The translations under genes and the position numbers were made by a program. A stretch of 64,000 bases of DNA from Desulfomicrobium escambiense DSM 10707 (GTDB lineage Bacteria > Desulfobacterota > Desulfovibrionia > Desulfovibrionales > Desulfomicrobiaceae), in the NCBI RefSeq assembly GCF_000428825.1, contig NZ_KE386803.1:1-64000 (forward strand). Direction: 5' to 3'. Within the stretch, counting starts at the first letter, position 1; every line of letters begins with the position of its first letter. Under the pieces are notes generated by a model. It worked only from the letters and a program-made list of their open reading frames with translations. It did no database searches and was not told where the DNA came from. Positions 4,904-36,260 of the stretch are shown in pieces.

Positions 4904-6114
4904 GCGTTTCCTCGTTTTCGTTCGCCGTAGGCCTTGGCCAGGCCGCCGTGGGATGTCTCCCGGTACAGGCTCGGCAGGTCGTGCCCTGTCTCTTTCATGA
5001 CTCGCACCACTTCGTCAAAGGGGATGCGGTGGGAACCGTCGGACAGGAGCACCATCTGCGCGATGCTCATGGCCTTGGTCGCGGCCATGGCGTTGCGCTC
5101 GATGCAGGGGATCTGGACCAGCCCGCCCACGGGGTCGCAGGTCAGGCCCAGATGGTGCTCCAGCCCCATCTCGGCGGCGTACTCGATCTGGCGGATGGTG
5201 CCGCCCATGAGCTGGGCCGCGGCCGCCGCTGCCATGGCGCAGGCCGAGCCGACCTCGCCCTGGCAGCCGACCTCGGCCCCCGAGATGGACGCGTTGTTCT
5301 TGATGACCAGGCCGATGAGCCCGGCCGTGGCCAGGGCCTGGAGGATGGCCCGGGGGCGGGATTCCATGGTTTCCTTGAGGTAGCGCAGCACCGCGGGCAG
5401 GACGCCGCTGGCCCCGCAGGTCGGGGCCGTGACCACGGTGCCGCCGGCGGCGTTCTCCTCGGACACGGCCAGGGCGTAGGCGGCCAGCAGGCCCGTGCGG
5501 CGCAGCTCGGCCCCGCCCAGGATGGCCTTCTGCTGGTACGAGCAGGCCTTGCGCGCCAGGCCCAGGCCTCCGGGCAGCACGCCTTCAGTGGTCAGGCCGC
5601 GCTCGATGCAGTCCTGCATGGTGCTCCAGACGGTCTGCAGGAAGTCCCAGACCTCCTCGCCCTCGTGCCGGGCCACGAACTCCCAGTAGGTCATGCCCTC
5701 CTCGGCGCACAGGTCCATGATTTCGGTCAGGGTATGCAGGTGGTAGACCTCGGGCGGGCGGCTCGACACGTCTTCGTCGCGCAGGGCGCCGCCGCCGATG
5801 CTGAAGACGGTCCAGGACTCGATGACATTTCCGTCGCCGTCCAGGGCCATGAAGTCCATGGCGTTGGGGTGCTCGGGGCGCCGCAGGCCCGGGGACCAGA
5901 CGATCTCCACGGGCAAGGGGGCCAGGGCCTGGGTCACGGCCTTGTCCGTGAGATGCCCCTTGCCCGTGGCGGCCAGGCTCTCGTAGAGCACGACGCGGAA
6001 ACCCGCGGCCTGGGGCACGCGGGCCCGGAAACGCTCGGCCGCCAGCTTGGGGCCCATGGTATGGCTGCTGGAGGGGCCGGCCCCGATGCGATACAATTCC
6101 CGGATGGATTCCAT
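4900..6114 (-). CDS. sdaA: L-serine dehydratase (L-serine ammonia-lyase), Fe-S type
   Basis: Deaminates L-serine to pyruvate and ammonia in the cytoplasm, using an oxygen-labile [4Fe-4S] cluster. The N-terminal beta-domain motif GAGPSSSHTMGP and the C-terminal alpha-domain motifs TCGASGV, GCQGEVGSACAM and CDPVGGLVQIPC, with the expected cysteines, are all present in one chain. At 404 residues it is somewhat shorter than the E. coli type. I prefer the ATG at 6114, which has GAGG five bases upstream, over the in-frame GTG at 6120. Pyruvate made here could feed energy metabolism in a sulfate reducer. The following gene overlaps it by four bases. Confidence 0.93.
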   Translation of the reverse strand: MESIRELYRIGAGPSSSHTMGPKLAAERFRARVPQAAGFRVVLYESLAATGKGHLTDKAVTQALAPLPVEIVWSPGLRRPEHPNAMDFMALDGDGNVIESWTVFSIGGGALRDEDVSSRPPEVYHLHTLTEIMDLCAEEGMTYWEFVARHEGEEVWDFLQTVWSTMQDCIERGLTTEGVLPGGLGLARKACSYQQKAILGGAELRRTGLLAAYALAVSEENAAGGTVVTAPTCGASGVLPAVLRYLKETMESRPRAILQALATAGLIGLVIKNNASISGAEVGCQGEVGSACAMAAAAAAQLMGGTIRQIEYAAEMGLEHHLGLTCDPVGGLVQIPCIERNAMAATKAMSIAQMVLLSDGSHRIPFDEVVRVMKETGHDLPSLYRETSHGGLAKAYGERKRGNA

Positions 6115-25664: not shown

Positions 25665-26153
25665 GCTTTTCACTTCTTCCTGAACCAATTCATACGTCGT
25701 GCCCACAGAGGCGGGTTCCCATCCCTGCAGGGAGGGGCCGTCTCAGGGCGGTCGCGCTCCAGCCCGTCCCGGGCGGGGGCGTCGAAACTCCTTCGCGGGC
25801 CTCGTAAGGCGGAAACGTCGAGTGTCGGTGCGGAAAGGGTGGGGCAACGCGCCTGGCGACGTTTTCGCCAACGATGCCGGGCTCAGTCGGACAGTCGACG
25901 CTCCCCGCCCGGGACGGGCAGGAACGCTCGGGGCTGTGCGGTGGACGGGGGATCAAGAAAATTTCAAGGAAATTTCACGGCAGGAGCACGCTGACTCTCC
26001 CCCTGCCAAGGGGGAGTACCCGAAGGGGGAGGGGGTATTCTTCCCGGAACCGGACTGGGCTGCGTCGGATGAGCACGAGTCAACCACCCCGCCCTCCGGG
26101 CACCCCTCCTTGGCAGGAGGGGAGTTGAAGTCCGATTCAGATCGCGACCCGGT
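25665..26153. other. Gene-free stretch of 489 bp
   Basis: No convincing reading frame is present. The left half (25690-25960) is GC-rich with no clear signals. The right part contains one pair of oppositely oriented 48-50-bp repeats (25991-26040 and 26081-26128), listed separately. The genes on either side converge. Confidence 0.6.
25991..26128. repeat. Pair of inverted ~48-bp repeats (types A and B)
   Basis: Copy A (25991-26040) contains CTCCCCCTGCCAAGGGGGAG, and copy B (26081-26128) is its diverged reverse complement with CCCCTCCTTGGCAGGAGGGG. Forty bases lie between. The same A-spacer-B arrangement, with a recognisably similar spacer, recurs at 34490-34620. Each copy can form a hairpin on its own. 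Confidence 0.85.
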
Positions 26154-32179: not shown

Positions 32180-33922
32180 ATGCTGTTCAGCAAGTTCTAC
32201 GCGCCCACCCTGAAGGAGACCCCGGCCGAGGCCGAGGTCATCAGCCACAAGCTGCTGCTGCGCGCGGGCATGATCCGCAAGCTGACCAGCGGCATCTACA
32301 CCTACATGCCGCTGGGTCTTCGGGCCATCAACAAGGTCGCAAACATCGTGCGCGAGGAGATGAACCGGGCCGGGGCCCAGGAAATCTCCATGCCCATGGT
32401 CCAGCCGGCCGATCTGTGGCAGGAGAGCGGGCGCTGGGAATTCTACGGCAAGGAGCTCCTGCGCCTCAAAGACCGCAACGGCCGCGACTACTGCCTCGGG
32501 CCCACCCACGAGGAGGTCATCACCGACCTCATCCGCGGCGAGGTGCGCTCCTACCGGCAGCTGCCCCTGAACCTCTACCAGATCCAGACCAAGTTTCGCG
32601 ACGAGATCCGCCCGCGTTTCGGCCTCATGCGCGGCCGCGAGTTCATCATGAAGGACGCCTACTCCTTCGACAAGGACGACGAGGGCGTGAACGCGAGCTA
32701 CCAGGCCATGTATGACGCCTACGAGCGCATCTTCACCCGCCTGGGCCTGCAGTTCCGCGCCGTGAGCGCCGACTCGGGCGCCATCGGCGGCAGCTTTTCG
32801 CACGAGTTCATGGTCCTGGCCGACACGGGCGAGGACACCCTGGCCGTGTGCACGTCCTGTTCCTACGCCGCCAACCTGGAGAAGGCGGAGCTCAAGCCCG
32901 GCGCGCCCTGCACCGAGACGTGCGCCCCATTTGAGCAGGTGGCCACCCCCGGCAAGCACACCGTCGAGGATGTGGCCGGCTTCCTGGCCGTGCCCACGGC
33001 GCAGATCATGAAGACGCTCCTCTTTGACGTGGACGGACGTTCCGTGGCCGTGCTCCTGCGCGGCGACCGCGAAGTGAACGACGTCAAGCTCAAGAACATG
33101 CTCGGCGCCACCAACGTCGACCTGGCCAGCCCCGAACAGGTCCAGGCCTGGACCGGCGCGCCCGTGGGCTTCGCCGGGCCGGTGGGTCTCAAGGTCGACG
33201 CCATCTACGCGGACTTCGAGATCGCCTCGGCCACGGATTTCGTCTGCGGGGCCAACGCCGCCGACGCGCACCTCCTGCACGTGGACCCGCGCCGCGACAT
33301 CACCCTGTCGACCGACGTCACGCCCACGGGCTACGCCGACCTGCGCTCCATCACCCTGGACGACCCCTGCCCGGCCTGCGGCGGCCCCCTGACCATGCCC
33401 AAGGGCATCGAGGTCGGCCACGTCTTCAAGCTCGGCACCAAGTACTCCAAGTCCATGAACGCCACCTTCCTCGACGAGAACGGCAAGGAGCAGGTCATCA
33501 TCATGGGCTGCTACGGCATCGGCGTCAGCCGCGTGGTGGCCGCGAGCATCGAGCAGAACAACGACGCGAACGGCATGATCTTCCCGCCGTCCATCGCCCC
33601 CTTCGAGGTCACGGTCCTGGCCATGTCCACCAGGGACGAGAAGGTCATGGCCCAGTGCCGCGCGATCCACGACTGGCTGGAAAGCCAGGGCATCGACACC
33701 TTGTTCGACGACCGCGACGAGCGCCCCGGCGTCAAGTTCAACGAGGCCGACCTCATGGGCTCCCCCATGCAGATCGTCATCGGCGGCAAAGGGTTGGAGA
33801 AGGGCGTGCTGGAAGCGAAGAACAGAAAGACCGGCGAGAAGCGGGAACTGCCGGTGGCGGATTGGCAGAACGCCGTTCTGGAATGGAGGAAGGAAGTGAT
33901 GAAGGAGTGGGGACTGGCGTAA
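32180..33922 (+). CDS. proS: Prolyl-tRNA synthetase
   Basis: A 580-residue class II synthetase charging tRNA-Pro. Motif 2 ([17 protein letters not shown]), motif 3 ([11 protein letters not shown]) and the bacterial-type editing insertion (about residues 225-405) are present, followed by the anticodon-binding domain. The ATG at 32180 has GAGGAG upstream; the longer frame starting at 32042 overlaps the previous gene and is not used. It belongs to the ispG-proS arrangement common in Desulfovibrionales. Confidence 0.97.
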
Positions 33923-33938
33923 TGATGATGAGGTTGCC

Positions 33939-34343
33939 GTGTCAGAAAAGAAGGTGCAGCATCAACTCCGGGAAAACAATCTGCCTTCGCTTCGAACCTT
34001 TCGGCGTGAATTGCGCAAGCATCTGACCCCGGCCGAAGCAAAATTGTGGGCGCACATCAAAAGCTCGCAACTCGAAGGCAGAAAATTCAGACGACAGCAC
34101 AGTGTGGGCAGGTACATTCTTGATTTTTACTGCCCGCAAGAGCGATTGGCCGTTGAACTGGATGGTGAAGTGCACAGCTTTGTCAGTGCGCAGGAACGTG
34201 ATTTGGAGCGGGACTGTTTTCTGAATACACAGGGAATCAAGGTGTTGCGCTTTGAAAACAAGGTAGTGTTTCAAGATGTTGAGGCTGTGCTGATTGAGAT
34301 TCATCGGCATTTTGGGTGGTTTCTGGACATGGAGACGGAGTAA
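33939..34343 (+). CDS. DUF559 (Vsr/restriction-like) endonuclease-domain protein
   Basis: A 134-residue protein of the DUF559 family, related to very-short-patch-repair and type II restriction folds. RRELRKHLTPAEAKLW, FRRQHSVGRYILDFYC and LAVELDGEVH are family signatures; the Asp of ILDFYC, Glu/Asp of AVELDGE and the preceding Gln are the probable metal-binding catalytic residues. GTG start with AGG upstream. Its codons are richer in A/T than those of all neighbours, suggesting transfer. Immediately after its stop begins an array of alternating inverted repeats. Confidence 0.87.
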   Translation: MSEKKVQHQLRENNLPSLRTFRRELRKHLTPAEAKLWAHIKSSQLEGRKFRRQHSVGRYILDFYCPQERLAVELDGEVHSFVSAQERDLERDCFLNTQGIKVLRFENKVVFQDVEAVLIEIHRHFGWFLDMETE

Positions 34344-34346
34344 GAG

Positions 34347-34771
34347 GCAACCACCCCGCCCTTTGGGCACCCCTCCTTGGCAGGAGGGGAGTTGGAATGT
34401 TCTGCGGGCGGGTTTTGATGTTTTGCGCCAGACTGATGTCTCGAATGCGAGGGTTCGATCTGGAGAATGACGTTGCCCGCACGCGTGAACTGACTCTCCC
34501 CCTGCCAAGGGGGAGTCCCCGCAGGGGGAGGGGGTATTCCCCTTTGCTAAGACTGATTCGGAGCGTGTGCGAAGCAACCACCCCGCCCTTCGGGCACCCC
34601 TCCTTGGCAGGAGGGGAGTTTGGGTTGTTTCCGGCTGGATGTTGTTGCTTTATGCGTCAGATGTTTGTGCGGGATGCATGGGCCTGGCCTGACGGAACAC
34701 GCCCCACGGCAAGCGCAATCTGATTCTCCCCCTGCCAAGGGGGAGTACCCGAAGGGGGAGGGGGTATTCCT
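34347..34771. repeat. Array of four alternating inverted repeats (B-A-B-A) after the DUF559 gene
   Basis: Copies are at about 34347-34395 (B), 34490-34540 (A), 34573-34621 (B) and 34720-34771 (A); A and B are reverse complements of about 48 bp with cores CTCCCCCTGCCAAGGGGGAG and its counterpart. Spacers alternate between about 95-98 bp (B to A) and 33 bp (A to B), and like spacers resemble each other, including weak self-complementarity. The array begins four bases after the DUF559 stop. The same repeats occur at 25991-26128. Confidence 0.9.
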
Positions 34772-34798
34772 CTTGAACCGGATTTTTTCAGGCTTTTT

Positions 34799-34827
34799 CA
34801 ATTTGTGACGCACTGCGTCACAAATTG
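34799..34827. repeat. Perfect 14-bp inverted repeat upstream of xseA
   Basis: Arms CAATTTGTGACGCA and TGCGTCACAAATTG are separated by a single C, making a near-perfect 29-bp palindrome 50 bp before xseA. It may be an operator for a dimeric regulator, or a hairpin ending the upstream transcript. The TGTGA/TCACA halves are nine bases apart, too far for a CRP-type site. Confidence 0.6.
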
Positions 34828-34877
34828 CTTTAATCATCCGGATTGACCGTTCACCCTAAAAAATATTTAGCGTTCCT

Positions 34878-36260
34878 ATGCACATATTCTCCGTCCGCAC
34901 CCTGACCCAGGCCATCAAGGACGTCCTTGAGGGCGAATTTCCCTTTGTCTGGGTGCGGGGGCAGGTTTCGAATCTTTCCAAGCCGCCTTCGGGGCACGTC
35001 TACTTCTCGCTCAAGGACGAGGAGGCGACGCTCAATGTCGTGTGGTTCAAGGGGGCCCAGCCCAAGGCCGGGAAGGATGACGGGGAGCGGGTCAATCCGC
35101 TGACCGGCGAGGTGGAGAGCGGGGCGCCGCTCACGCTGGCCGACGGGCTCGAGGTGCTCGTGGCCGGGCGCATGAACGTGTACCCGCCGCGCGGGGCCTA
35201 CCAGCTCGTGGCCGAGCTGGTGCAGGGGCAGTGCATGGGCGAGCTGGCGGTGGCCTTCGAGGCCATGAAGGCCAAGCTGGCGGCCAAGGGGTATTTCGAC
35301 CCGGAGCGCAAGATGACGCCGCCGCGCAACCCGCGCCGGGTGGCCGTCATCACCGCGCCCCAGGGGGCGGCCCTGCAGGACTTCCTGCGCGTGGCCGGGG
35401 ACCGGGGGTACGGGGCCGTCGTGCGGCTGTATCCGAGCCTGGTGCAGGGCGACAGCGCGCCGGCCCAGATAGCCGCGGCCCTGGCCCGGGCGGACCGGGA
35501 CGGCTGGGCCGAGGTCGTCGTGCTCATCCGCGGCGGCGGGTCTCTCGAAGACCTGTGGGCCTTCAACACCGAGCCCGTGGCCGAGGCCCTCTTCCGCTGT
35601 CGTCTGCCCGTGGTCTGCGGCGTGGGGCACGAGGTGGACACCACCATCGCCGACCTCGTGGCCGACCTGCGCGCGGCCACGCCGTCCCACGCGGCCCAGG
35701 TGCTGTGGGCCGAGCGGGCGGTGCTCAGGCAGCAGGCCGACGAGATTTTTCTGGCCTTGGCCCGGGGCATGGGGCGCTTTCTGGACGAGCGCGAGGGCGC
35801 GTTGAACCGGCTGGCGCAGGGGCTCGTGTGGAACTCGCCGGCCCGGCGCATCGAGCGCGGGGGGTTCGAGCTGGAGCGCCTGGCGGACCGGCTGCGCCAG
35901 GCGGCCCTGCGCATGGCCGGGGAACGGCGCGAGGCCTTGTCCCGCCTGGACGAGCGCCTGCGTCGCGCCTTCGGTCCGGCCCGCATCATGTCCCTGCAAT
36001 CCGAGCTGGACCGGACCCGCTCGGCTCTGGCACAGTCCGCTTCGGCCCTGGTCGGCCGTCGCCGGGACGCCCTGCGCGACCTGGAGGGCCGCCTGGCCGC
36101 CCTGGACCCGGCCGCGCCCCTGGCCCGAGGCTACGCCCTGGTGCGGGGCCGGGACGGGTTTGTCCGTTCGCGCCTGGACGTGCGGCCCGGCGACACGATC
36201 CGCGTACAGGTCTCGGACGGCGAGTTCGGGGCCGAGGTGCTGCCCGAGGAGCTTTCATGA
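34878..36260 (+). CDS. xseA: Exodeoxyribonuclease VII large subunit
   Basis: A 460-residue nuclease subunit that degrades single-stranded DNA together with XseB. An N-terminal OB fold (VWVRGQVSNLSKPPSGHVYF, residues 23-42) is followed by the catalytic region (VAVITAPQGAALQDFL, LIRGGGSLEDLW, VCGVGHEVDTTIAD, RAATPSHAA) and a long helical region. It starts the five-gene unit xseA-M23-xseB-ispA-dxs. Its stop overlaps the next start (ATGA at 36257-36260). Confidence 0.95.
   Translation: MHIFSVRTLTQAIKDVLEGEFPFVWVRGQVSNLSKPPSGHVYFSLKDEEATLNVVWFKGAQPKAGKDDGERVNPLTGEVESGAPLTLADGLEVLVAGRMNVYPPRGAYQLVAELVQGQCMGELAVAFEAMKAKLAAKGYFDPERKMTPPRNPRRVAVITAPQGAALQDFLRVAGDRGYGAVVRLYPSLVQGDSAPAQIAAALARADRDGWAEVVVLIRGGGSLEDLWAFNTEPVAEALFRCRLPVVCGVGHEVDTTIADLVADLRAATPSHAAQVLWAERAVLRQQADEIFLALARGMGRFLDEREGALNRLAQGLVWNSPARRIERGGFELERLADRLRQAALRMAGERREALSRLDERLRRAFGPARIMSLQSELDRTRSALAQSASALVGRRRDALRDLEGRLAALDPAAPLARGYALVRGRDGFVRSRLDVRPGDTIRVQVSDGEFGAEVLPEELS

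Follow-up and report, generated by a model that had tools for sequence, protein, structure and literature searches.

The DUF559 nuclease gene and the adjoining array of inverted repeats in the window (the whole stretch of 64,000 nucleotides that was analysed) may, at what we put as about an even chance, belong to a widespread, homing-type class of cassettes in which a nuclease gene is combined with palindromes, the palindromic ends having also spread as solo repeats. This reading is built on the association of DUF559 genes with palindromes, on the co-variation of the repeats with the nuclease lineage, on filled and empty sites, on the fold of the enzyme and on its use as an intein endonuclease, all of which were observed; recognition, cutting and copying of the palindrome would be its putative steps.

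The DUF559 gene and its repeat array

The window protein was compared with the PF04480 profile, giving an E-value of 3.7e-33 and a score of 114.1 bits (curated cut-off 20.6), and was assigned to the family on this basis. Residues D62, E73, G76, D88 and R91 are invariant, and D75 and H79 nearly so. The preliminary description had reported an AT-richer DUF559 gene ending four bases before a B-A-B-A array of repeating units, with alternating spacers of about 96 and 33 bp of which like ones were similar, and the same pair near 25991-26128 with no DUF559 gene. The composition of the gene (49% GC versus 66-73% for its neighbours), the 4 bp between its stop codon and the start of repeat A1 and the second pair (found as B-A) were all recovered (Table 1), and the array is real, but on the + strand it reads A-B-A-B, with spacers measured at 96, 35 and 99 bp. 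Homology was detected between the two long spacers (61 identities, a value reached by none of 300 shuffles), whereas no measurable likeness was found when the short spacers (35 and 40 bp) were compared, which argues that the array, judged by its sequence, consists of an A-spacer-B unit duplicated in tandem. At its extended edge (AAGAGGCAACCACC), repeat A overlaps the DUF559 stop codon. No palindromic repeat was found to the left of the gene, the repeats being confined to its right side. An inverted repeat, AATTTGTGACGCACTGCGTCACAAATT, is located at 34801-34827, between the array and xseA.

Repeats A and B are each 48 bp long and palindromic, and A shares with the reverse complement of B a common plan consisting of a main hairpin with stems of ~7-8 bp (CCCCTCC..GGAGGGG or CTCCCCC..GGGGGAG), a small second hairpin and a tag (CCACCCC / GGGGTAT). 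Single strands of the repeats fold at -12 to -16 kcal/mol (z -2 to -3.2), and the core CTCCCCCTGCCAAGGGGGAG is present in three exact copies in the window against 0.03 expected (up to 3 mismatches). The whole genome holds six exact B cores, six copies of A and a single DUF559 gene. Exact repeat A was also found in 17 and 11 copies in the complete congeners G002 and G012, neither of which has such a DUF559 gene, and as a single copy in each of three further genomes of the window's family; since repeat A is present in many copies where DUF559 is absent, the repeats outlive or outrun the gene. Solo copies of A were also considered as remnants of the DUF559 3' end, a possibility that was dropped because the shared AAGAGGCAACCACC is part of the extended A in genomes that lack DUF559.

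Repeat A keeps company with other repeats in the genus. A longer composite repeat (AACTCCTTCGCsGGCCTCGTAA ... AACGATGCCTGGCTCAGTCAGACAG) often adjoins it (L247, L251, L267, L274) and is also present in the window at ~25770-25905, beside the B-A pair, and a lone A copy on contig C1 of the window genome (L008 1300-1450, G000:C1) adjoins GCCATCCCCGCGAAGGCGGGGATGGC-type palindromes, so that two repeat families are mixed there.

Table 1. Features of the window, by position, and surveyed loci with DUF559 in frame inside longer genes.
Feature	Position or locus	Strand	Details
DUF559 nuclease gene	33939..34343	+	134 aa, GTG start
Repeat A, copy 1 (A1)	34348..34395	+	tag CCACCCC, small hairpin GCCC..GGGC, main hairpin CCCCTCC TTGGCA GGAGGGG
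A1-B1 spacer, 96 bp	34396..34491		homologous to 99-bp spacer at 34623-34721
Repeat B, copy 1 (B1)	34492..34539	+	architecture equals reverse complement of A
B1-A2 spacer, 35 bp	34540..34574		tags facing each other
Repeat A, copy 2 (A2)	34575..34622	+	
A2-B2 spacer, 99 bp	34623..34721		
Repeat B, copy 2 (B2)	34722..34769	+	
Second pair, repeat B, without DUF559	25993..26040	+	
Second pair, repeat A, without DUF559	26081..26128	+	
In-frame DUF559 in DUF1156 methylases	L277, L278, L280, L289, L112		
In-frame DUF559 in HsdR	L279, L017		
In-frame DUF559 in HsdM	L281, L286		
In-frame DUF559 in HsdS	L282, L283		between two recognition domains
In-frame DUF559-plus-repeat insertion in long ORF	L051		

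Palindromes at nuclease genes across bacteria

A search of GTDB genomes yielded 80 DUF559 loci from Bacteroidota, Pseudomonadota, Acidobacteriota, Verrucomicrobiota, Cyanobacteriota, candidate phyla and others; these represent the best-scoring relatives, divergent DUF559 domains inside helicases (L019/L020) falling outside the survey. A GC-rich exact hairpin was found at most 400 bp from the gene in 74 of the 80 loci, and on both sides in 50, compared with 13.8% (any side) and 0.37% (both sides) when that geometry was applied to control positions elsewhere in these loci. In a stricter control, hairpins on both sides were found for 45 of 73 DUF559 genes and for 7 of 233 other ORFs of 100-400 aa in the same loci (p 4e-27), and the left and right flanks contained exact inverted matches of at least 12 bp in 46% of 102 loci versus 1.4% of controls. 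A further 30 loci, drawn from 394 genomes of the window's phylum, mostly have the arrangement palindrome-TTAGGGTGAGGGG-gene-CCCCTCACCCTAA-palindrome. Across many phyla, nearly all of ~110 DUF559 relatives lie beside or between palindromes, whole palindromes rather than half palindromes bounding the genes, and the link between the two is the rule. At one locus of the order Pseudomonadales, in another phylum, A-like and B-like repeats accompany a DUF559 protein 68% identical to that of the window. Individual loci showed further arrangements: in Pedobacter alluvionis (L032, ~5001-6000) the DUF559 gene is present in tandem copies with repeats between them, and in one genome (G017) two near-identical cassettes (L018 and L022) are enclosed by a larger inverted GTTACGCACGCC repeat, and L022 has a right flank that resembles a putative IS200/RAYT-type transposase gene.

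The loci were divided by tag into type I (ACCACCC, 40 loci) and type II (CCTCACCC, 19 loci). On the DUF559 tree, which has few columns and many open forks, tag type changes 4 times versus 16.2 after shuffling (0 of 300 shuffles as low), and 2 times versus 5.3 for rows taken as the window's phylum (1 of 300). The window protein clusters with type I loci from Pseudomonadota, Bacteroidota, Verrucomicrobiota and Cyanobacteriota, whereas most DUF559 proteins of its own phylum are type II; repeat type thus tracks the nuclease's own tree more than the host. The type II repeat was also scanned for across the 394 genomes with the pattern CCCTCACCCN{1,5}CCCTCTCCC, which replaced CCCCTCCTN{2,9}AGGAGGGG, a pattern too narrow to serve as a phylum-wide marker (at least 3 copies in 10 genomes, 6 of them with a strong DUF559 hit). 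Of the 89 genomes with a strong DUF559 hit, 46 contained at least 5 copies, as did 35 of the 305 genomes that lacked one (odds ratio ~8, p 1.5e-14, a nominal value as the genomes are not independent and many are incomplete); at least 20 copies were found in 27 and 11 genomes, respectively. The maximum was 145 copies in one genome, and the reversed control pattern was almost absent.

A second nuclease family has a comparable setting. GIY-YIG nuclease genes (L217-L246) lie between palindromes of the GTCATTCCsGCGAAAGCsGGAATCCAG type, with a hairpin on at least one side in 23 of 30 loci and on both in 15, an example in the window genome being G000:C2:151653-151931 (L234); in more diverged GIY-YIG clades the repeats are GTCATTGCGAG..GCAATCTC or GTCATTTCGA..GAAATCT. 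A survey of tagged REPs in 2013 described the CGTC class as having no dedicated enzyme (PMC3733652). As most of the 30 loci have repeats of that description on the flanks of their GIY-YIG gene, the sequences suggest that the same principle may operate for CGTC repeats with a different nuclease. In the openly accessible literature that was searched, no paper was found linking DUF559 to repeats or bacterial GIY-YIG nucleases to REPs, and the repeat strings matched one useful Neisseria paper.

The enzyme, its insertion sites and its in-frame copies

A profile search of the PDB with DUF559 retrieved 3hrl (1.4e-32) and the homing endonuclease I-Bth0305I (3r3p, 4.5e-4). The AlphaFold2 model of the protein (pLDDT 87.6) was aligned with NGO0050 of Neisseria (3hrl) at Z 14.9, with the catalytic domain of I-Bth0305I (3r3p) at Z 10.9 (rmsd 3.0, 94 aligned residues) and with Vsr (1cw0) at Z 8.9, and DUF559 is accordingly predicted to have the Vsr / homing-endonuclease fold. 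NGO0050, of the same family, is the closest solved structure, a structural-genomics entry whose title gives neither function nor context. In Caulobacter, the DUF559 protein VsrA causes DNA damage and an SOS response in vivo when a methyltransferase is missing (PMC12907096), and the family can therefore be active on DNA.

Sites with and without the cassette, which the preliminary description had proposed looking for in related strains, were found at three junctions. At the hemB-radical SAM junction of one genus, four genomes have only 41-42 bp (empty), four have repeat-DUF559-repeat, with three more partly seen, one has a repeat remnant, and two have a GIY-YIG nuclease gene inside unrelated palindromes. 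The cassette begins a few bases past the hemB stop codon and the palindromes are its outer limits; in the pair L188 and L197 the boundaries coincide with the palindrome ends and no clear target-site duplication was seen. The empty junctions of congeners hold no repeat, and the repeats therefore came with the gene there. At hutU-hutH, the cassette is present in two species and absent from four. The patchy distribution and the finding of two unrelated nuclease families at one junction argue for gain rather than loss as the more probable direction over these sites taken together.

The third junction, proS-xseA (33922-34878 in the window), had been described as a gene run interrupted by the insertion. 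DUF559 and the array do lie there, and in the window's genus only in the window genome, but the junction also hosts other genes in sister species: a YhcG/DUF1016 PDDEXK nuclease gene in five congeners and a zeta-toxin-like gene in one (orthologous sites L165-L167, L172, L176), while G002 and G005 are empty. A duplicated 5' piece of xseA was seen to the left of some of these inserts in several congeners. Within the genus this junction acts as a general hot spot for insertions, and so the insertion found here does not by itself define the element; as proS-xseA is too variable, hemB and hutU-hutH were used for the empty-site comparison.

DUF559 is also found within other genes. In L284 (G218) and L288 (G313) it occupies the endonuclease position of a DNA methyltransferase intein (TIGR01443 above cut-off), and the L284 intein gene contains repeat-encoded SLPVDGEGWGGV peptides. 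Long ORFs with an interior in-frame insertion of DUF559 plus repeats are almost all restriction-modification genes (Table 1), and peptides encoded by the repeats, for example PSPxPLPxGEG, border the DUF559 copies. When L017 is set against EcoR124I, its HsdR insertion of ~170 residues lies between the nuclease and helicase domains.

Interpretation and relation to known systems

In the cassette model, the DUF559 protein would recognise its own palindrome, as hairpin or duplex, and would nick or break the DNA there, after which host repair may copy either the cassette or a palindrome-only, non-autonomous derivative into the break, so that both would spread. Unequal recombination between palindromes could then generate arrays such as A-B-A-B and tandem gene copies, those of Pedobacter alluvionis being what such recombination would lead one to expect. 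The direction of insertion is putative, as are the enzymatic steps. The model is weakened by the 35 genomes that have at least 5 type II repeats and no strong DUF559 hit, by the richness of G002 and G012 in repeat A with no DUF559 gene, by the missing left repeat of the window copy and by the failure to see a clear target-site duplication.

Alternatively, the repeats may be the target, with REP arrays spread by other machinery (RAYT, host replication slippage) and DUF559, an ordinary free-standing nuclease of homing or defence, landing beside or between them by cutting or by palindrome recombination. This would explain why repeats outnumber DUF559 genes and persist where the gene is absent; insertion sequences are known to target REPs (PMC1525189), and both the proS-xseA and the hemB junctions take unrelated cargo. 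However, repeat type tracks the nuclease lineage across phyla, the gene is bounded by whole and not by half palindromes, and the empty junctions of congeners are free of any repeat, and we consider this, the main rival explanation, to be less likely than the cassette model. Less likely again is that DUF559 is a Vsr-like accessory nuclease of repair or restriction whose palindromes are regulatory hairpins (terminators, translation dampers) keeping a toxic enzyme low, as might be suggested by the match to the Vsr fold, by the functional tie of Caulobacter VsrA to a methyltransferase (PMC12907096) and by the many in-frame copies in restriction-modification genes; such hairpins would not be expected away from the gene in as many as 145 copies, of the same sequence family as its flanks, nor on both sides of it and inside host ORFs and inteins, nor with a patchy distribution and empty sites. 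That a small gene has come to lie near intergenic hairpins or terminators by chance, with nothing systematic behind it, could be imagined from the single DUF559 gene of the genome and its one-sided repeats, and is scarcely credible given the phyletic association and the three controls (control positions, other small ORFs, inverted matches between flanks), by which it was ruled out.

Among known systems, the cassettes resemble REP/RAYT elements (REPtrons, BIMEs, REPINs) in having a small enzyme gene flanked by palindromes (on one side only in the window), in the alternating orientation, terminal tag and multiple copies of the repeats, and in their solo and paired spread between genes. They differ in that the REP/RAYT enzyme is a Y1 (HUH) tyrosine transposase rather than a Vsr/homing-type nuclease, in that the foot of the REP hairpin carries GTAG, which is absent from A and B, and in having two-hairpin repeats with the tags CCACCCC or CCCTCACCC. 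The likeness to REP/RAYT elements noted in the preliminary description, with DUF559 as candidate enzyme, thus holds for the tie of DUF559 to its own palindromes across phyla and for the empty sites, but not for the fold, which is unlike that of a RAYT tyrosine transposase. A distribution of repeats independent of DUF559, with no empty sites, which was named there as contrary to the proposal, was overall not observed, although the highest counts of exact repeat A within the window's own genus come from two genomes that lack DUF559.

EDxHD (Vsr-like) homing endonucleases such as I-Bth0305I share sequence and fold similarity, use in inteins and filled and empty alleles with DUF559, which differs in that its boundaries are palindromes specific to the family, many solo copies of which occur at unrelated sites; a nuclease that homes to a single cognate allele does not account for these dispersed repeats, and the making of dispersed palindromes is no part of known homing endonuclease behaviour. 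CGTC-tagged REPs (dRS3 of Neisseria and others) are likewise dispersed palindromes described as having no dedicated enzyme, but their partner appears to be GIY-YIG and not DUF559, and A and B, which differ in stems and tags, lack the CGTC tag, the 8-9 bp stem starting with AT and the CCA tail that characterise the class (PMC3733652). Vsr and the VsrA of Caulobacter share the PD-(D/E)XK Vsr fold, and VsrA has a DUF559 domain, but repeats are no part of Vsr systems.

Few repeats are as common in bacterial genomes as short GC-rich palindromes, and for many of their families we know of no source. DUF559 looks like a long-missing candidate enzyme partner of this very common class of repeat, and the close, lineage-specific link between repeat and nuclease, as read from the sequences, provides named enzyme-repeat pairs that are open to direct tests. 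It also offers a working hypothesis on the role of the abundant DUF559 family and could account for the in-frame nuclease domains in restriction-modification genes. More tentatively, and with somewhat less than even confidence, we suggest that an undescribed class of mobile DNA exists in which homing-type nucleases, and not transposases, generate bacterial palindromes and disperse them, DUF559 and GIY-YIG enzymes each having a repeat family of their own. If true, several large orphan REP families, the CGTC repeats included, would gain their missing enzymes, and homing endonucleases would pass from the copying of alleles to the genome-wide dispersal of non-coding DNA.
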